From the NCBI GenBank assembly GCA_017462565.1, contig JAFTQW010000020.1:1-64000 (forward strand): a DNA stretch of 64,000 nucleotides, written 5' to 3'. Both the position numbers and the translations under genes were made by a program. Position 1 is the stretch's first letter. Every line of letters begins with the position of its first letter. Source of the DNA: Ruminococcus sp. Lineage in GTDB: Bacteria; Bacillota; Clostridia; Oscillospirales; Ruminococcaceae. The notes beneath the pieces were generated by a model. That model was given only the letters and a program-made list of their open reading frames with translations, was not told the DNA's origin and made no database searches. This document shows positions 10,341 through 19,309 of the stretch, piece after piece.

Positions 10341-13300
10341 ATGAATAAGTATATAAGCAAAACAGTTTCGGTTATATCAGCAGCGGCAATTTCAGCAGCT
10401 TTTTGTTTTCCGGCTTCTATTAATGCAGGATTCAAAGCTGATACTGCTGAAACAGGGAAACTGAAAAATGCTCCGGATTTTTCATACGCAATTCCGGAAT
10501 TTACACATCTTATAGGTAAGTCAGGACTTGAGCTTACTCCTGTGGCAGGATATGCTCCGTTAAAAGAAGAACCGGAACTTTACGGAAGCGCTGAAAATCT
10601 TCCGGAATCATACGATCTGAGAAAAACTTCCGGTATAAGTTCTGTGAAAGATCAGTCGATTTATGGGACTTGCTGGACGCATTCTTCTGCGGCGAGTGCA
10701 GAAAGCGGACTGCTTAAAACCGATCCGTCTGTTAATTTGTCGGAACTGCATACGGCATTTTACTCTTATTACGGTTCAGATCAGATCGAAACGGGTCTTG
10801 ATAAGATAAGCGATATTCTGAATTATGGCGGTTCAACAAGCGTTGTTGCTAATCTGTGGTCGCAGTGGATAGGACCTGTAAAGGAGGAAAAGCTCCCGTA
10901 TGATAACGTACAGTTTTTCGACGATCCCATAAAAATCGAAGAAATGAGAAACGAAAGCGATTATCACCTTGAAAATGCATACTTGTTTGATTTCGACGAC
11001 GAAAGAAACAACTTTGACGAAGTGAACGGACTTATAAAACAGTTTGTTTATGAAGGGCATGGAGTTGATGTTTCGTTTTACAGCAATACTGCTCTGAATT
11101 ATGATTATAATAAATATTCGAGCTATACCGTTCGCAAACCTCGTTTTGCAAATCATGCTGTAACCATTGTGGGCTGGGACGATAATTTTCCTGCATCAGA
11201 TTTTAAACAAACACCCGAGGGAGACGGCGCATGGCTTGTAAAAAACAGCTGGGGTTCAAATTACGGCGAGGAGGGATATTTCTGGCTCTCATATTATGAC
11301 AGATCTCTGAGTCAATTTGCAGTTTACGATCTTGGCGATAAAAACAATTATAACTACATTCATCAGCACGATTCTTTTGTTCCCACCAACAGTATGTCAG
11401 CTTATGATGAATCTGATATTATTGCGTCTTCTTATATGGCAAATATTTTTAGTTCGGAAAACGGCGAACAGATCGAGGCTGTTTCAACATATTTCAATAA
11501 TCCCGATACCGAATATGAAGTGGTGATTTACACAGATCTTACCGATTTATCCGATCCTGTATCGGGCAATCCTTCGTCGGTAACGTCAGGAAGCTGTAAA
11601 CTGACCGGATATCAGACAATAGAGCTTTCCGAAGATGTTCTGGTTGACGCAGGCGAAAGCTTTGGAGTTGTTGTAAAAATGTACTGCGAGGATACGCCTT
11701 ATGTAATTCCGCTTGAAACGAGCTTATATGCGGAAAATTATGAAACCGGTGAAATAACTGATCTCGGCGGATATACGACTAAATCCGGAATAGAAGCATA
11801 TACTGATATAAATCAGAGCTTTTTCAGTTCTGACGGTATAAGTTGGAGCGATACGGTGGACGCTCCCTATACTTATTCGGAAGAGGAAAAAAACATTCTT
11901 CTTGAATCTCTCAATAAACAGCTTTTTGACGGCATTGAACCTTATGAAACAGATCTTCTTGAAGACGCTCAAACAAGATATCAGTATTACAGTAATATAT
12001 TTGAAACCTGTGATGTAAGTGTAATTATGGGAAACATTTCGCTTAAGGCGTTCGGCAGTGAAAAGAATACTGTAGATTTCTCGCACATTTCGGGAGAGGT
12101 TCCGCTGGATGAGAAAGTTGAATTATCTGTAAAAGACGGCTCGGAAATCTTTGTTTCAATAAATGGGGGAGAGTATAATGCTTATACAGAGCCTATCGCT
12201 GTAACTGAAAAAATGACTATTTCAGCAACCTCTGATAAAAATACGTTTACTGAAAGAACTTACGAACCGGCTTCAGCTCAGTTTTTCAGCTTGTGTTACG
12301 ATGCTGATACAAGGCACGGAGGTTTGATTCTCAGTGAAGCAGAAAAAAAGAGTAAAAATGAATACGAAATAAGACTGGGAAATACCGAATCGGAACTAAA
12401 GCTTTATCCGGTCACAGACGCTGACATTAAAATGAATGGAGAGCATATTGAAAGCTACAGCGCTACTGATGCAATACCGGTCGGCTACGGTGAAACTGTA
12501 GTGGAATTTGAGCTTGAAAAGCCGAATGCTCTTAAAAACAGCGTATATCTTACGATTGTAAGAAGTCCGATAATAATTAATATTCAATCTGAAAATGTTA
12601 TTTTTTCCGGAGCTGATAAGCTTTACGCTCCTGACGGAACAGAAATATCAAACGGATCATATGTCGGAAATTATGCCGGCGAGACTCTTACTGCCGTAGT
12701 CGGCAGCGAAGAGATAGAATGCCGTGTTCCGGAGAGAATAAGCATCCCTGAACTGGAAATTGATTACTATTATGAAACTCTTGGGTTTATTCCAAATGAA
12801 ACGGCTGAACTGCTTGAATATGCGCCTATGGAAAATCCTGCGGAAAGTGATTACATTTCCGCTGAAAAACGTTTCCGTGACGGAACATGGATAAACTCCG
12901 GAATGATAATGAATAAGGTTTTCGTGGTAATTCCTGGTGAAACGATAACTTTGAAGGCTAAAGCTGGAAACGGAAAATTTGCGAGCGAGCCTGTTACATA
13001 TTATATACCTGAAGCTCCGGAAGCTCCCGCTGAGTTCACGGATTACACAATAAAAGACGGAAATTTAATTTTGAACGGATATGAATATGAAATAGCTTTG
13101 CCTGATAATTCAGTTACAATATCGGAAAAAGCAGAAGCAATGGGATATTCAGATACGGAACAATTTGCTGACATTATGCTCTCAAGAATTGGATGCGCTG
13201 ATAAAGAAGCTCTTGAACGTTACTTGGGTTCATTATGGGACAGTTCAAATAAGGTCGGACAAGGAAGTGAATTTGCCGTAAGATATTCATCAACTGCCGA

Positions 13301-13550
13301 TTCATTTGCCTCGAAAGCGCTGTTCACAAAGGCTGCCGAAAAAGGAGACGTGAATGGGGACGGAGTTGTTGACGGTATCGATGCAACTTTAATTCTAAGG
13401 CATTATACGCTTATTATATCCGGAGCTGACGGCTGCATTACTGAACCGTTTATCAGTTACGCTGATTATAACGGCGATGGAGTGATAGATGCTGTTGATG
13501 CAACGCTCGTATTGAGATTTTATACGGAAAAGATTTCTGCAAAGCCATGA
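10341..13550 (+). CDS. Secreted C1-family (papain-like) cysteine protease with C-terminal dockerin
   Basis: 1069 aa. A signal peptide (about 1-30) is followed by a papain-type domain (about 85-330): Gln105 and Cys111 in KDQSIYGTCWTHS, His272 in NHAVTIVGWDD and Asn302 in VKNSWGSNYGEEGYFWLSY form the catalytic set. A long middle region (about 340-980) of beta-rich, probably Ig-like or chitobiase-type modules follows. The C-terminus is a type I dockerin (about 1002-1066) with two calcium-loop/helix repeats, DVNGDGVVDGIDATLILR and DYNGDGVIDAVDATLVLR. It should therefore be secreted and plugged into a cellulosome through a cohesin. AGGAGG precedes the ATG. Its dockerin differs in sequence from those of the GH9 and GH26 enzymes, so it may bind another cohesin. 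Substrate unknown. Confidence 0.9.
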   Translation: MNKYISKTVSVISAAAISAAFCFPASINAGFKADTAETGKLKNAPDFSYAIPEFTHLIGKSGLELTPVAGYAPLKEEPELYGSAENLPESYDLRKTSGISSVKDQSIYGTCWTHSSAASAESGLLKTDPSVNLSELHTAFYSYYGSDQIETGLDKISDILNYGGSTSVVANLWSQWIGPVKEEKLPYDNVQFFDDPIKIEEMRNESDYHLENAYLFDFDDERNNFDEVNGLIKQFVYEGHGVDVSFYSNTALNYDYNKYSSYTVRKPRFANHAVTIVGWDDNFPASDFKQTPEGDGAWLVKNSWGSNYGEEGYFWLSYYDRSLSQFAVYDLGDKNNYNYIHQHDSFVPTNSMSAYDESDIIASSYMANIFSSENGEQIEAVSTYFNNPDTEYEVVIYTDLTDLSDPVSGNPSSVTSGSCKLTGYQTIELSEDVLVDAGESFGVVVKMYCEDTPYVIPLETSLYAENYETGEITDLGGYTTKSGIEAYTDINQSFFSSDGISWSDTVDAPYTYSEEEKNILLESLNKQLFDGIEPYETDLLEDAQTRYQYYSNIFETCDVSVIMGNISLKAFGSEKNTVDFSHISGEVPLDEKVELSVKDGSEIFVSINGGEYNAYTEPIAVTEKMTISATSDKNTFTERTYEPASAQFFSLCYDADTRHGGLILSEAEKKSKNEYEIRLGNTESELKLYPVTDADIKMNGEHIESYSATDAIPVGYGETVVEFELEKPNALKNSVYLTIVRSPIIINIQSENVIFSGADKLYAPDGTEISNGSYVGNYAGETLTAVVGSEEIECRVPERISIPELEIDYYYETLGFIPNETAELLEYAPMENPAESDYISAEKRFRDGTWINSGMIMNKVFVVIPGETITLKAKAGNGKFASEPVTYYIPEAPEAPAEFTDYTIKDGNLILNGYEYEIALPDNSVTISEKAEAMGYSDTEQFADIMLSRIGCADKEALERYLGSLWDSSNKVGQGSEFAVRYSSTADSFASKALFTKAAEKGDVNGDGVVDGIDATLILRHYTLIISGADGCITEPFISYADYNGDGVIDAVDATLVLRFYTEKISAKP

Positions 13551-13804
13551 TTTTTAATCAGAAAAAAGATTCGTTTGAAGTTGGATAAATATACTAAAAA
13601 TGCATGGAAAAACTTTGAATAATTGTATTTATTATGCAATACCTATAAAAGAAGGGTTATGAATTTGTGAAATAAGAGTGAAAAAAGCTTTTACCGTTTT
13701 GTAACCTTTTGACTTTATTGTTTTTAAATATGTGATATTTGCTAAAAAAACAATGTTGAAAGTGTATAGGATGCACAAAAAATATTAAATAACGCTACAA
13801 ACCA
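13551..13804. other. Non-coding AT-rich spacer downstream of the protease
   Basis: 254 bp with no supported ORF, clear terminator or repeat. It contains many short A/T runs and ends at the promoter of the leader RNA. Confidence 0.5.
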
Positions 13805-13833
13805 TTGACTTTGAACAAAAAATACGGTATATT
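13805..13833 (+). promoter_or_regulatory. Promoter of the ABC-importer leader RNA
   Basis: TTGACT (13805-13810), a 17-bp spacer and TATATT (13828-13833). It lies about 400 bp before the first coding gene, implying a long 5' leader. Confidence 0.7.
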
Positions 13834-13839
13834 TTATAT

Positions 13840-14220
13840 TACAAAGAGCAATTGTGCCTATTTTTGCTGTGCGTATGTTTTGATTTATAACCGCATTAAA
13901 GCAGATGCACCGCATACAAGCTGACCGGAGCATAGCGGACTGAAACATCGGATACAGGAAGAAAACTTCTGAATGTACTCGCTATGGAAGAATGCTTTGT
14001 TTCCGCAAAACGGGAAACTCCCGTACAAGCAGTTGCTTCAAGATTACACTGACCTAATCGTCTTTCGTAATAGCTGTTATATTAAAACAGCAGCCCGGAA
14101 TGCGACAGGATAAATATGGCAGGCGGCGAGTACATTCGCTGAGCCGGAAATAATCCGGAAGCGGACCGTGGAAAATTTATCCAAACATATTATACTTTAA
14201 TTTGAGTATAATATACATAT
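13840..14220 (+). ncRNA. Candidate structured 5' leader RNA (unassigned) upstream of the sugar ABC importer
   Basis: About 375 nt between a good promoter and the binding-protein gene, without an ORF. Pairings seen by eye: GAATGTACTCGC (13971-13982) with GCGAGTACATTC (14126-14137), 12 perfect pairs; GGATAAAT (14108-14115) with ATTTATCC (14175-14182), which crosses the first and gives a pseudoknot; hairpins ACGGG/CCCGT (14010-14024), GCTGTT/AACAGC (14073-14091) and CCGGA/TCCGG (14144-14158). An alternative helix CATAGCG/CGCTATG (13931-13937 with 13980-13986) competes with the long stem. A last hairpin (14187-14196 with 14205-14214) lies just before the AAGGAGG. I find no match to T-box, cobalamin, SAM, M-box, tmRNA, RNase P or 6S signatures. 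It could be a riboswitch-like leader or an independent RNA. Confidence 0.55.
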
Positions 14221-14237
14221 TTAAGGAGGAAATTCTA

Positions 14238-15716
14238 ATGAACAATCTTAAGAAAACATTAGCTTTAGTAGCTACACTTGCAATGGCTTCTACAGCATTC
14301 GTTGGATGCGGCAGCAAGGATTCATCTTCTGATGCTGGTACTGCAGCAACAACAGCAGCTCCTACAGATGCTACTACAGAGGCTCCTACAGATGACGTAG
14401 AGCCTACAGATGACGTAGAGCCTACAGACGAACCTGATACACCTTCAGCTGGCAACTCTACAGAGCTCGGCGCTGTAACACTTAAGACAGGCGGCGACAC
14501 ATTCTCAGTAGCTGCTTGGAACCCAGATGACGTTCCGGCTCTTCTCGAGCAGTGGGAAAAGAACACAGGCTACGATGCTTCTAAGGTAGCTTTCACAAAC
14601 TTTGACTGCGGCGGCGGCGATGCAGCTGAAAAGTATGACGCTCTCTTCAGCGCCGGCGACGACCTCGACGTTTACTTCTGCGAAGCTGACTGGGCTCTCA
14701 AGTATATCAACGATGATACAAAGACAGCTCCTCTCGAGGCTCTCGGATTCTCCGATGCTAACTTCCAGGATGCTTATGCTTACACAGCTGAAATCGGTAG
14801 AGCTACATCAGGCGCTAACGCTGGTAAGATGGTAGGTGCTTCATGGCAGGCTGCTGCTGGCGGATTTGCTTACAGAACAGACCTCGCAGAGCAGTACCTC
14901 GGCGTTAAGACACCTGAGGAAATGCAGGAAAAGATTCAGGGTTGGGATAACTTCGTAGCTGCTGCTACAGAGGTTGCTACAGCTTCTGACGGTAAGGTTG
15001 CTTTCGCTGACTCACTCGGCGGTATGTGGCAGGTATTTGCTGCTAACAGAACACAGCCTTGGGTTGTTGACGGACTTCTCGAAATTGACGATTCCTGCAA
15101 GACATTTGCTGACTATGCAAAGACACTTTGGGATAACGGCGGCGTAACACACAACGCTCAGTGGACAGACGCTTGGATCCCTGCTGGTAAGGACGGCACT
15201 TGCATGGGTTACTTCGTATCTACATGGGGCTTCGGCGAGAACGCATTCTTCGGTCAGGCTTCTTCTGATTCCTACGGTAAGTGGGCAGTTTGCGAAGGTC
15301 CTGACAAGTACTTCTGGGGCGGCACATGGATCGTTGTAAATCCTGCTACAGATAACGCTGAGGAAGCTCAGTCATTCATCTTCAACGCAACAGTTGATTC
15401 TGATGCAATGAAGGAATTCGCTCTTAGCAAGCCTGAGTATGTAAACAACCAGACAGCTATGAACGCTATTATTGACGCTAAGGAAGTTCCTAACCAGTGG
15501 GTAACTGATAACCTCGGCGGACAGAACTACTTTGAAGTTCTCAACGAGAACGCTAAGAACATCGACCTTAAGGGACTTATCACTCCTTATGATGCTACAA
15601 TCAAGAGCGAGTTCCTTAACGCTGTAACAGAAGAGTACTGTGCTGGTAAGTCATGGGATGACACAATCAACAGAGTATACGCTAAGGTTGGCGAAGCAAT
15701 TCCTGAGCTTGCATAA
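14238..15716 (+). CDS. Sugar ABC transporter substrate-binding lipoprotein
   Basis: 492 aa from ATG at 14238, preceded by AAGGAGG at 14223-14229. Lipobox FVGC (Cys24), then an Ala/Thr/Asp/Glu/Pro-rich linker with a short tandem repeat (DDVEPT twice, about 53-66), then a family 1-type extracellular solute-binding fold. Family members deliver oligosaccharides to MalFG-type permeases, here encoded directly downstream. Codon use is strikingly uniform (ACA, GCT, CTC, AAG preferred) unlike its neighbours, suggesting very high expression. The gene is followed by a stable stem-loop and then the permeases. Sugar specificity cannot be read from the sequence; plant oligosaccharides fit the cellulosomal context. 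Confidence 0.9.
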   Translation: MNNLKKTLALVATLAMASTAFVGCGSKDSSSDAGTAATTAAPTDATTEAPTDDVEPTDDVEPTDEPDTPSAGNSTELGAVTLKTGGDTFSVAAWNPDDVPALLEQWEKNTGYDASKVAFTNFDCGGGDAAEKYDALFSAGDDLDVYFCEADWALKYINDDTKTAPLEALGFSDANFQDAYAYTAEIGRATSGANAGKMVGASWQAAAGGFAYRTDLAEQYLGVKTPEEMQEKIQGWDNFVAAATEVATASDGKVAFADSLGGMWQVFAANRTQPWVVDGLLEIDDSCKTFADYAKTLWDNGGVTHNAQWTDAWIPAGKDGTCMGYFVSTWGFGENAFFGQASSDSYGKWAVCEGPDKYFWGGTWIVVNPATDNAEEAQSFIFNATVDSDAMKEFALSKPEYVNNQTAMNAIIDAKEVPNQWVTDNLGGQNYFEVLNENAKNIDLKGLITPYDATIKSEFLNAVTEEYCAGKSWDDTINRVYAKVGEAIPELA

Positions 15717-15758
15717 TTCTGATTGCATTTAAATTTCACTAATTAATTGAATTTATGA

Positions 15759-15798
15759 TAGTTGCCTATTGAACGCAAGTTCTATAGGCAGCTATTTA
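15759..15798 (+). terminator. Intercistronic stem-loop between binding protein and permease genes
   Basis: A long hairpin: TAGTTGCCTAT (15759-15769) pairs with ATAGGCAGCTA (15784-15794), with an inner GAAC-GCAA-GTTC, followed by a short weak T stretch. Likely a partial terminator or an RNA-stability element that makes more binding protein than permease, as in maltose operons. Confidence 0.7.
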
Positions 15799-15834
15799 TA
15801 ATCTCAAAACAAATTTTACGAGAGGGTGTGTGCT

Positions 15835-16980
15835 ATGGCATCAGCTGCCCAGAAAAGAATTAAATCTATCAGCTATGCTAAATATGGCTATATTTTTATT
15901 CTGCCGTTTTTTCTTGTTTATTTCTTTTTTCAACTATGGCCTTTAGTTAATACTTTCGTTCTTTCCTTTAAGGGAAACGATACAACCGTTGAAGAATTTG
16001 TTGGATTTGACAACTATAAAACTATCCTTTTTGATACAGACGTAGATATGGATGTTGTTAAGGGAACTTCTCCTAAATTAGCGAATATGTCTGCTGATGA
16101 GAAAAAGGAAGCCAGAAAGGCCGAACAGGCTAAGGTTGGTCAGAAGGCTCAGCATGATACTTTTGTCAAATCATTTGGAAATACTCTTATTCTCTGGATA
16201 GGAAACTTTATTCCTCAGATTATTCTTTCTCTTTCACTCGCTGTTTGGTTTACTGACGCTAAACTTAAAATTCCTGGAAAAGGTTTCTTTAAGGTTGTTA
16301 TGTATATGCCAAATATAATCACTGCGGCTTCTGTTGCGGTATTGTTCCTGTCACTTTGTTCTGAATCTAAATATGGTGCGTTAAACCAGATTTTACATAG
16401 TGTTGGTATTGTTGACGATATTACATCAACGAATTCTAACGATTTTGTTAAGTTCATTTCAGGTAAATGGGAACCAAGAATTGTCGTTATGTTTATTCAG
16501 ACATGGATGTGGTTCGGTAACACAATGATCATGCTTATGTCCGGTATCATGGGTATTAACCCGTCGCTCTTTGAAGCTGCAAGCATTGACGGCGCAAGCA
16601 GCGGACAGGTATTCAGAAAGATCACACTTCCGCTTCTTAGTCCTATCATGGTTTATACTCTTGTAACATCTATGATCGGTGGTCTTCAGATGTTTGATAT
16701 TCCTTATCTTTTCCATAAGGGTACAAACGATCTTAATCCTGAAATCCGTACTGTTGCTGTTTATATTTATGAAAGATTCCATACTTCTGGTACTATTTCA
16801 TACAGCTACGGTTATTCAGGTGCTGCATCTGTTCTTCTCTTTATCGTAACTCTTATTCTCGGATCCATTACATTCTACATGAATAGAGATGTTGACGCAA
16901 TTGCAAAAAAGAAGCAGCGTAAAAAGCTTGCAAAACAGGCAAAGCTTCAGAATAAACAGTTTGGAGGTCTTAGCATATGA
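15835..16980 (+). CDS. Sugar ABC transporter permease (MalF/UgpA type)
   Basis: 381 aa from ATG at 15835 (AGAGGG 8 bp upstream; an in-frame GTG 9 bp earlier lies too close to the RBS). A polytopic membrane protein with six or more hydrophobic segments and the binding-protein-dependent transport EAA loop (EAASIDGASSGQVFRKITLPLL), which contacts the ATPase. An unusual charged insertion (about residues 70-110, rich in K, E and A, ANMSADEKKEARKAEQAK) sits in the first external loop. The C-terminal tail is basic (KKKQRKKLAKQ). It overlaps the next permease gene by 4 nt (ATGA). Confidence 0.92.
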   Translation: MASAAQKRIKSISYAKYGYIFILPFFLVYFFFQLWPLVNTFVLSFKGNDTTVEEFVGFDNYKTILFDTDVDMDVVKGTSPKLANMSADEKKEARKAEQAKVGQKAQHDTFVKSFGNTLILWIGNFIPQIILSLSLAVWFTDAKLKIPGKGFFKVVMYMPNIITAASVAVLFLSLCSESKYGALNQILHSVGIVDDITSTNSNDFVKFISGKWEPRIVVMFIQTWMWFGNTMIMLMSGIMGINPSLFEAASIDGASSGQVFRKITLPLLSPIMVYTLVTSMIGGLQMFDIPYLFHKGTNDLNPEIRTVAVYIYERFHTSGTISYSYGYSGAASVLLFIVTLILGSITFYMNRDVDAIAKKKQRKKLAKQAKLQNKQFGGLSI

Positions 16981-17873
16981 GTGATATGAAATCCGTTTAC
17001 GGAAACAAAAAAGATAATTATATGTTTAAGATACGACTTAAGTCGACAATTCTGTTTATCTGGTTCCTTATCTTAACAATTATTTGCTTGCTTCCTATTT
17101 ATATTCTTTTAGTTAATGCAACACGCAGCAATAATGATATTTCCGGTGGTTTCTCACTTATCCCTGGCGATTATCTTGCTACAAACTTCAAAAATATGAG
17201 AACTCTTGAATATGCTAAGAGTGCTTTCAGACCTCTCATTGGTTACAGAAACAGTGCTATTATTACTGTTTCCTCAACATTTCTGACGGTTTTCTTCTCA
17301 GCTTTAACATCATATGGTATACATGTATACGACTTCAAGCTTAAAGAAGCTTCATATACATTTATTCTTTTAATCATGATGATTCCTGTACAGGTAACAT
17401 CAGCAGGTTTTGTACAGTTTATGATTAAGATGCATCTTCATAATACATACTGGCCGCTTATCATACCGGCTGTTGCTGCTCCGGCAGTTGTATTCTTTAT
17501 GAGATCGTACATGAAGTCATCGTTCCCGCTTGATATTGTTGAGGCTGCTCGTATTGATGGTTCAGGCGAGTTCAGAACTTTCCTTACAATTGCAATTCCT
17601 ATGATGAAGCCAGCTATTGCTGTTCAGGCAATTTTTGCTTTCGTTGCAAGCTGGAATAACTTCTATACACCTTCTATGATCCTTCTTAATGGTGATAAGA
17701 CTAAGCAAACCCTTCCTATGATGATTCAGGCAGTTCAGGCTTCGGATAAGTTTACTGATTACGGTATTGTTTATACATGTATCGCACTTAGTATCGTTCC
17801 GATCGTTATTGCTTATGTTTGTCTTTCAAGATTTATCATTGCCGGTGTTGCACTTGGCGGTGTAAAGGAATAA
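16977..17873 (+). CDS. Sugar ABC transporter permease (MalG/MsmG type)
   Basis: 298 aa, six predicted transmembrane segments and the EAA motif (VEAARIDGSGEFRTFLTIAIP, about 180-200). It forms the inner-membrane channel with the preceding permease. No ATPase gene follows; such importers in Firmicutes commonly share a multi-system MsmK/UgpC-type ATPase encoded elsewhere. A strong terminator follows directly. Confidence 0.93.
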   Translation: MSDMKSVYGNKKDNYMFKIRLKSTILFIWFLILTIICLLPIYILLVNATRSNNDISGGFSLIPGDYLATNFKNMRTLEYAKSAFRPLIGYRNSAIITVSSTFLTVFFSALTSYGIHVYDFKLKEASYTFILLIMMIPVQVTSAGFVQFMIKMHLHNTYWPLIIPAVAAPAVVFFMRSYMKSSFPLDIVEAARIDGSGEFRTFLTIAIPMMKPAIAVQAIFAFVASWNNFYTPSMILLNGDKTKQTLPMMIQAVQASDKFTDYGIVYTCIALSIVPIVIAYVCLSRFIIAGVALGGVKE

Positions 17874-17983: not shown

Positions 17984-18514
17984 ATGAAGATTCTGGTCGT
18001 TATTGATATGCAAAATGATTTTTTAACTGGTGCTTTAGGAAATGCTGAGACAGCTTCTGTAGTCGATAAGGTCGTGGAGAAGATGAAGGATTTCCATGCA
18101 GCTGAAATGGACGGAAGAATTATTGCAACACTCGATACACACTATGAAAATTATCTTTCAACTCAGGAAGGAAAAAATCTCCCGATTCCTCATTGTATTA
18201 AAGGAACGCACGGCTGGAATTTAGCGGATCAAATAAAATCTTCACTTTCAGAAAATGATGTAACGATAAATAAAAAAACATTCGGAGCAATTGATTTGCC
18301 GGATGTAATCAGAAAAATGGGAGAAGTGGACGAAATAAGTCTCATTGGAGTTTGCACTGATATATGTGTTATTTCAAATGCGATGATACTCAAGGCAGCG
18401 TTTCCTGAAGTTCCGATAAAAGTAATATCAAGCTGTTGTGCGGGAGTTACTCCTGAGAGTCATGAAAATGCATTGAACGCCATGAGAGTATGTCAGATTA
18501 CTATTGAAGAATAA
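17984..18514 (+). CDS. Nicotinamidase-like cysteine hydrolase (isochorismatase fold)
   Basis: 176 aa. Hydrolyses nicotinamide to nicotinate in NAD salvage, if the family call is right. Visible residues: Asp9 in VIDMQNDF, the metal site DTH (Asp51, His53) with His70 in IPHC, a catalytic-lysine candidate at 97-98 (KKTF), and the nucleophile Cys128 in GVCTDICV. The metal triad distinguishes nicotinamidases from other isochorismatase-like hydrolases. The next gene, 24 bp downstream, is NAD synthetase, which strongly supports an NAD role (pncA function). Confidence 0.88.
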   Translation: MKILVVIDMQNDFLTGALGNAETASVVDKVVEKMKDFHAAEMDGRIIATLDTHYENYLSTQEGKNLPIPHCIKGTHGWNLADQIKSSLSENDVTINKKTFGAIDLPDVIRKMGEVDEISLIGVCTDICVISNAMILKAAFPEVPIKVISSCCAGVTPESHENALNAMRVCQITIEE

Positions 18515-18538
18515 AGAAATGTTTTGGAGGATAATTTT

Positions 18539-19309
18539 ATGAAAAATAATCTTGTTAAAGAATATGAATTTAATGCAGAAAGTGTGGCAAATGAAGTTGT
18601 AGAATGGGTGAGAGCTTATTTTGAAAAAAATGCTGCACCTGATACTAAAGCTGTAATTGGAATTTCTGGGGGTAAAGATAGTTCTGTTGCTGCGGCAATT
18701 TGCGTGAAAGCTCTTGGTAAGGACAGAGTTATCGGAGTTCTTATGCCTCAGGGTGAACAGTCAGATATTGAATATAGTCGTCGTTTAGTTGAATTTCTTA
18801 GTATTAAATCTTATACAATTAATGTTGGTGAAACAGTAAAAACTTTTATGAACGAACTGAAAAAACATATTGAACCCTCAAATCAGGCTATTGTCAATAC
18901 TCCTGCAAGAATACGTATGACAACTTTGTATTCAGTCGCAGCAAGTGTAGGCGGCAGAGTCGTAAATACCTGTAATTTATCTGAGGATTGGGTAGGATAT
19001 TCAACGAAATATGGGGATGCTGCCGGAGATTTTTCACCGCTTTCGGATCTGACGGTTACTGAAGTTCTTGCAGTCGGTGATGTACTCGGACTTCCTTATG
19101 ATATTGTTCACAAAGTTCCAACTGACGGTCTTTGCGGAAAAACTGATGAGGAAAATCTCGGATTTACTTATGCTTTGCTTGATAATTATATCAGAGGAAT
19201 TGATGATCTTAGCGAGTATCCCGATATAAAGGAAAAAATTGATCGTCTTCACGCCGCAAATCTTCATAAGTTAATGCTTATGCCAAAGTATGAGCAAAAA
19301 TTAGATTGA
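18539..19309 (+). CDS. nadE: NH3-dependent NAD(+) synthetase
   Basis: 256 aa from ATG at 18539, with GGAGG 8 bp upstream. Amidates nicotinate adenine dinucleotide to NAD using ATP and ammonia. The PP-loop ISGGKDSS is at 42-49, and TPARIRMTTLY and STKYGDAAGDFSP are typical of the synthetase active site. There is no N-terminal glutaminase domain, so it should use free ammonia. Co-transcribed with the nicotinamidase gene: together they close the nicotinamide-to-NAD route with the adenylyltransferase NadD encoded at 47316. Confidence 0.95.
   Translation: MKNNLVKEYEFNAESVANEVVEWVRAYFEKNAAPDTKAVIGISGGKDSSVAAAICVKALGKDRVIGVLMPQGEQSDIEYSRRLVEFLSIKSYTINVGETVKTFMNELKKHIEPSNQAIVNTPARIRMTTLYSVAASVGGRVVNTCNLSEDWVGYSTKYGDAAGDFSPLSDLTVTEVLAVGDVLGLPYDIVHKVPTDGLCGKTDEENLGFTYALLDNYIRGIDDLSEYPDIKEKIDRLHAANLHKLMLMPKYEQKLD

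Follow-up and report, generated by a model that had tools for sequence, protein, structure and literature searches.

A conserved, structured leader RNA ahead of a sugar-binding lipoprotein gene in Ruminococcus

In a contig of Ruminococcus sp. (JAFTQW010000020.1, assembly GCA_017462565.1), the gene for a sugar-binding protein starts about 400 bp downstream of its promoter. What is the long stretch in between, and what might it do for the gene that follows? We addressed this question in 64,000 nucleotides of that contig, here referred to as the window, in which the leader and the importer genes are all on the forward (+) strand. An earlier note, made from the sequence of the window, had pointed to a good promoter about 400 bp before the gene, and this promoter is present as a sigma-70-type TTGACT-17-TATATT at 13805-13833. 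The gene itself (14238-15716, with its ATG at 14238) codes for an extracellular sugar-binding lipoprotein of 492 aa (SBP), its lipoprotein nature being read from its N-terminus. Two ABC permease genes follow, permease 1 at 15826-16980, which may in fact begin at an alternative ATG, 15835, and permease 2 at 16977-17873, both assigned to BPD_transp_1 by Pfam.

Searches of Pfam and NCBIfam with the SBP gave nothing at E<=0.001, and its sole match among PDB sequences at E<=0.1 was 8bfy, annotated as putative cellobiose-binding (E 1.1e-7). The host is probably a fibre-digesting gut bacterium. Upstream, at 10341-13547 of the window, Pfam identifies a protease of the papain family that also carries a lectin-like domain and a dockerin, which suggests a cellulosome-attached protease; downstream of the importer genes, at 17984-19309, lie an isochorismatase-fold gene (nicotinamidase-like) and NAD synthase.

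The leader (13840-14237) folds better than shuffled versions of itself (z -3.5, 0/100 shuffles as good), and so does the part from 13840 to 14180 (z -3.0, again 0/100). No part of the 64 kb window matched an Rfam 15 family at its gathering threshold (0 matches), and a search with 13700-14300 at E<=10 gave four sub-threshold hits of 11.7-18.1 bits, where the thresholds are 55-100. Thus, the proposal of a structured leader that matches no Rfam class stands. The individual helices on which that proposal was built fared differently. A perfect 12-bp long-range helix, 13971-13982 with 14126-14137, is present in the window and exceeds what chance would give, because 0/300 dinucleotide shuffles reach that length. 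However, L006, the closest of the relatives found to share this leader (92% identical), lacks the 5' arm of this helix, GAATGTACTCGC, while the 3' arm is unaltered as part of a local hairpin, B, within which it falls. Similarly, a competing helix of CATAGCG at 13931 and CGCTATG at 13980 exists in the window, but both of its arms are gone from L006 when the sequence is read. Because both helices are missing from L006, the alternative folds are not conserved, and we reject a switch that works by alternation between the 12-bp helix and the competing one. A crossing 8-bp helix, 14108-14115 with 14175-14182, is present in the window and does cross the 12-bp helix; its letters are identical in L006 and, therefore, uninformative either way. 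As a separate observation, window 13971-13982 is an exact inverted copy of 12 hairpin-B bases, a copy that L006 lacks. Judged by comparison of relatives, the conserved helices are the local hairpins A and B, which the earlier note had not singled out, together with a hairpin, T, beside the ribosome-binding site.

To describe these hairpins across the genus, we examined 98 loci upstream and kept 93 leaders; L073, L086, L094, L098 and L115 were dropped for want of a promoter or an ATG. The loci had been gathered by BLAST with leader DNA or by a T-arm pattern, so that selection accounts in part for their having T; hairpin B played no part in collecting them, although some BLAST matches (L006, L013, L029) span it. 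The genus sequences are related, and the counts for hairpin B and its loop are, therefore, not independent events. From -35 box to ATG the 93 leaders measure 223-595 nt. Their sequence diverges fast outside the hairpins, with few near-invariant letters beyond A, B and T, and we discarded a single whole-leader alignment, in which MAFFT had aligned chiefly the ends. In five clades aligned with plain MAFFT, RNAalifold recovered T and B in every clade listed, B with only two pairs in one of them, while A appeared in some of the listed clades and not in that of L014.

The promoter elements recur across this set, TTGACT in 91/93 leaders and TATATT 23 nt after the start of the -35 box in 91/93, counts that are no proof of the start position, since the leaders were chosen with the promoter pattern. 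A transcription start near 14220, which the earlier note had named as the finding that would speak against a long leader, is not favoured by the sequences, because TATAAT is missing from the T region in 19/93 leaders while TATATT is positioned as described in 91/93. Ahead of the -35 box, in window 13640-13804, TTTTACCGTTTTGTAACTTTT and an A-rich block look kept across the genus on reading; these bases may be a regulator site or an UP element. A simple scan of the leader from promoter to gene found no terminator-like site.

Hairpin B (14124-14141) is a covarying stem that closes a hexaloop of the form GNACAN, in the window GTACAT at 14130-14135. GNACAN closed by a stem of 4 bp or more occurs in 78/93 leaders, while 28/93 is the figure for the runner-up among 256 such patterns. 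Loop B lies 98-121 nt from the ATG in 75/93 leaders. Four genus members (L016, L066, L077 and L112) have no usable B. In L053, L072, L090 and L101 a second GAGTACATTC with complementary flanks stands further 5' than hairpin B, which looks like a duplication of the module. We also considered a pseudoknot formed by loop B and found no sign of one: 5/88 leaders carry a 6-nt complement of their own loop, compared with 7.1% of cross pairs.

Hairpin A (14043-14071) consists of an outer ATTAC/GTAAT stem, an internal loop and an inner GAC/GTC stem, which is GGC/GCC in others; its pair counts come from an alignment of A and B (A6, see below). In its strict form (TTAC/GTAA) it is found in 38/93 leaders, compared with a mean of 11.1 (max 19) over 20 shuffled sets, and is missing in 55/93; A2 took 32 of 37 hairpin-A sequences. 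Directly after A follows hairpin C (14073-14091), a short stem of variable sequence with at least 4 Watson-Crick pairs in 21/36 A-bearing leaders versus 19% in letter shuffles. There is, finally, a possible long-range helix, P1, between a promoter-proximal arm, GAGCAATTGT (13846-13855), and GCAGTTGCTT (14029-14038), just 5' of hairpin A. In the window, P1 has 10 bp including three G-U, with a pairing energy that does not surpass that of shuffles (p 0.55). At p<=0.05, the energy of P1 is better than that of shuffles in 16/92 leaders, and a helix of at least 8 bp forms in 23/83 own pairs versus 15% of cross-species pairs. Thus, from the sequences, P1 is a possible and weak candidate.

Hairpin T (14187-14214) has an 11-bp A/U-rich stem, with one U-G, and a 6-nt loop. 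It ends 8 nt before the Shine-Dalgarno sequence AAGGAGG (14223-14229), i.e. 10 nt before GGAGG, and it is preceded by an A/U-rich linker (14169-14186) that may be a processing region. Averaged over 92 leaders, the 18 nt before T are 70% A+U, compared with 53% in the remaining leader. The centroid fold leaves AAGGAGG free, while in the minimum-energy fold 3/7 of its bases are paired. With up to two mismatches, TAATATACATATTTAAGGAGG, which comprises the 3' arm of T, the spacer and the Shine-Dalgarno sequence, is found in 84/125 genus genomes, exactly once in each, while its reversed control matched once in all 125. A looser pattern (TATTAT..ATAATA..GGAGG) hit 110/125 genomes and was left unused for counts, since many hits were unrelated and some fell to the control. 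A script that allowed loops of 3-13 nt and distances of about 5-15 nt found T in 116/117 regions, the miss being L071, with loops of 3-12 nt and a distance to GGAGG of 8-12 nt, which is 10 nt in 81; L139, where an earlier T script had found none, was left out of the 117.

Do these hairpins behave as RNA structures? After removal of the four members without a usable B, 89 sequences were thinned to 67, of which 64 form alignment A1 of B and T (L032, L074 and L081 were out for length). In A1, 9/14 pairs show changes on both sides, namely all six pairs of B, the two loop-adjacent ones in one sequence each, and three of the eight pairs of T, whose outer pairs hardly vary; the signal comes mostly from outer B pairs and inner T pairs. 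Overall, 90.1% of cells are paired, compared with 21-55% in slid controls, and 0/500 shuffles attain any of the five values measured. In A6, an alignment of A and B in 60 sequences fitted to a structure model, 9/14 pairs again have both-side changes and 96.6% are paired versus 24-45% when slid, with 0/500 shuffles for four measures and 3/500 for the fifth. The shuffles leave sequence kinship in place, and the structures were drawn from the same sequences, which favours them over their slid versions. The covariation check in homologues that the earlier note had asked for thus gave compensatory changes on both A1 and A6, and the comparison gives good support to the leader as a conserved structured RNA, with compensatory pair changes beyond shuffled and slid controls.

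Two models were used to follow the parts of the leader beyond these loci. Model R1 (B and T) has matches in 28/396 family genomes from 10/126 genera, and 7/28 are in the genus of the window. All 28 precede an SBP homologue, which in one case (L129) is visible as a 21-residue piece only; in the nine other genera, T alone is evident by eye. In the window's own genome, R1 at E<=10 gives one strong site, the other four having E 1.26 or worse. This genome has a second SBP-like domain (L198, G000:C15:334-1584, minus strand), 70% identical over residues 61-478 and following an N-terminus unlike that of the window SBP, and its upstream region shows on reading no leader of the A-B-T type and has no R1 site either. 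Model R2 represents the domain from A to B and was built from A4, i.e. 23 of 37 A-to-B segments, which match it by construction. At E<=0.005, a search of 98 sources, the window among them, gave 60 R2 matches, of which 23 are the segments that built the model; these 60 make up A6, which left out matches with E >0.005, a looser list having held four low-scoring wrong-strand matches (L018, L092, L102 and L066). In an order-wide sample searched with stricter filters and including genus member G028, R2 matched 1/394 genomes, the window's own. Neither model matched G028, and its locus L169 has on reading a hairpin with GAGTACATTC and a different sequence at the place of T. Based on these searches, the A/B domain appears restricted to the genus, in which alone it was seen.

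T also occurs in another setting. In 13/25 loci, it lies 2-24 nt behind an open frame of 337-398 codons; three more genus loci have it 18-22 nt behind a frame truncated by the locus boundary. The one frame tested belongs to the LacI family; for the others, length and letters were the criteria. In a family sample collected by protein only, a hairpin of at least 8 bp stands at the place of T in 12/29 SBP loci, some of other sequence, a raw count from a sample in which some genomes also have R1 hits. Within the genus, L086, L094 and L098 have the SBP gene behind a lacI-like open frame and no long leader. The sequences suggest that the long leader replaced an older lacI-SBP arrangement, or that it was lost there.

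At the other end of the SBP gene, single-sequence folding predicts a long stem-loop between the SBP and permease genes (15757-15799). Judged by eye, the region folds in the window and in 17/17 relatives with changed letters, the check having taken 17 of 18 loci (L161 was left out). With the window, folding thus places a stem-loop at the SBP 3' end, as expected for an end-protected cistron, in 18/18. According to PMC9045158, stem-loops after SBP genes in R. cellulolyticum are internal terminators that affect the stability of the SBP transcript and go with SBP excess. The importer locus described here resembles those of cellulolytic clostridia in that paper in having the SBP gene first, an intergenic region of ~110 bp and a long stem-loop after the stop codon. 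It differs from what the abstract and section 6 of PMC9045158 describe in its conserved 5' hairpin and leader, and its 3' stem-loop is a predicted fold.

Based on these data, we suggest a model in which the 5' UTR has two parts, the genus-specific A-C-B domain, perhaps closed by P1, and then T, 8-12 nt before GGAGG. By comparison, T occurs alike where the gene has its own promoter and where it stands behind a lacI-type frame. T and the 3' stem-loop would protect the two ends of the transcript, and T would in addition keep the ribosome site open. As a result, the binding protein would be made in excess over the permeases from a gene that is presumably highly expressed, and the leader probably helps the cell to make much SBP. 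The A/U-rich linker may be the place where the leader or the lacI-SBP mRNA is cleaved. The A-C-B domain is most likely bound by a protein at its GNACAN loop, which would tune the stability or the output of the SBP mRNA. In other words, T and the 3' stem-loop would bracket a stabilised, well-translated SBP mRNA, with A-C-B as a genus-specific cis-acting module; we give this account an even chance of being correct. Stabilisers of the ompA/aprE type are hairpins near the 5' end and the ribosome site of the mRNA of a highly expressed gene. T differs from them in that its sequence and its position, ahead of a single gene, are nearly fixed in several genera, and the sequences speak against the stabiliser reading in so far as T is tied to one gene only, while a general stabiliser might be reused.

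The closest known parallel to such a bracketed cistron is selective RNA processing and stabilisation (SRPS) in C. cellulolyticum. As reported in PMC4423207, stem-loops at mRNA ends, there too of secreted fibre-degradation machinery, set the abundance of one cistron relative to its neighbours. In that system it is chiefly the 3' ends that the authors found protected: 27 stem-loops lie at 3' processing sites and 6 at 5' ones, which weakens the stabiliser reading of T. Here, by contrast, the 5' hairpin by the Shine-Dalgarno sequence is the most conserved element, and processing is only proposed.

Among the alternatives, the one that survives best, while still unlikely, is that the A/U-rich linker is cut, releasing a stable RNA of ~330 nt with a function elsewhere and leaving the remaining mRNA capped by T. 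The compact predicted fold and the position of the linker before T fit this possibility, and a free, abundant 5' UTR is reported in PMC5815224 for the xyl-doc cluster of C. cellulolyticum. The fast divergence outside the hairpins and the weak candidate for a closing helix, P1, argue against it. The comparison with the C. papyrosolvens xyl-doc 5' UTR in the same source extends to a leader of >400 bp with a complex fold ahead of fibre-utilisation genes. Unlike the present leader, in which the simple scan found no terminator, that one reportedly blocks transcription and is suspected to contain termination hairpins.

Could A-C-B instead be a metabolite riboswitch that binds a sugar or cofactor and changes how accessible the ribosome site is or how the RNA decays? 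A long leader with a fold of z -3.5 and near-invariant loop and internal-stem letters, ahead of a transporter gene, would suit this idea, which we nevertheless regard as rather unlikely. The conserved letters lie mainly in A, B and T, with variable spacing between them in leaders of 223-595 nt, the own genome has one R1 site, the A-B domain was not found outside the genus, and the mutually exclusive helices are not conserved. Moreover, with no terminator-like site in the simple scan and AAGGAGG free in the centroid fold, 3/7 paired bases in the minimum-energy fold notwithstanding, no clear platform for a classic on/off switch stands out among the folds examined.

Antitermination or attenuation in the leader under the control of a LoaP-, BglG- or ANTAR-like protein appears improbable. 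Antitermination proteins typically bind hairpins with a conserved small loop, a description that B fits. Nevertheless, the simple scan turned up nothing terminator-like from the promoter to the gene, and GNACAN does not seem to fit the ANTAR loop.

More doubtful still is that T works at the DNA level, as a palindromic site for a protein such as a LacI-type regulator, instead of as an RNA structure. It forms an inverted repeat that often adjoins a lacI-type frame, and its near-fixed outer pairs, which hardly vary, lend this idea slightly more weight. However, T does not have the fixed centre spacing of a LacI operator palindrome: loops of 3-12 nt favour RNA over a fixed-spacing DNA site, inner T pairs are changed on both sides, and T keeps to 8-12 nt 5' of GGAGG in 116 regions where the script allowed 5-15. 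In addition, the window T has no neighbouring lacI, and the best relative of the L131 LacI in the own genome is 28% identical and lies elsewhere. That an unselected spacer folds by chance is scarcely credible; leader length and most of the sequence do vary widely, but the covariation contradicts it, since compensatory changes greatly exceed those in the shuffled and slid controls, and the confinement of loop B to 98-121 nt from the ATG in 75/93 leaders also speaks against it.

The leader is comparable in kind to the cis-regulatory motifs in Rfam, but matches none of them. In titles and abstracts, a literature search found no description of this leader RNA; subscription papers are thinly covered by that search, and the leader may be in the supplementary lists of PMC8040213. 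Word look-ups in PMC11109978 and PMC8632094 likewise found no description of it. According to PMC4300822, R. albus transcribes family 1 solute-binding proteins higher on cellulose than on cellobiose. Going beyond the bracketed mRNA, we speculate, tentatively and with the balance against it, that the leader represents an undescribed class of regulatory leader RNA, with a GNACAN hairpin and a conserved internal-loop hairpin, that evolved in Ruminococcus to gate the import of products of cellulose breakdown, through direct sensing of a sugar-derived signal or through a dedicated RNA-binding protein, and that was joined onto an older cassette of hairpin plus Shine-Dalgarno sequence travelling with the SBP gene through the family.

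The finding adds a well-supported RNA family to the list of orphans, and it offers the B loop and the T stem as targets for mutation. If the proposed model is correct, one gene for fibre-sugar uptake would carry stacked RNA devices, a widespread hairpin at the ribosome site, a genus-specific folded leader and a 3' stem-loop, and would provide a concrete, testable case of how binding proteins are made in excess of their permeases.
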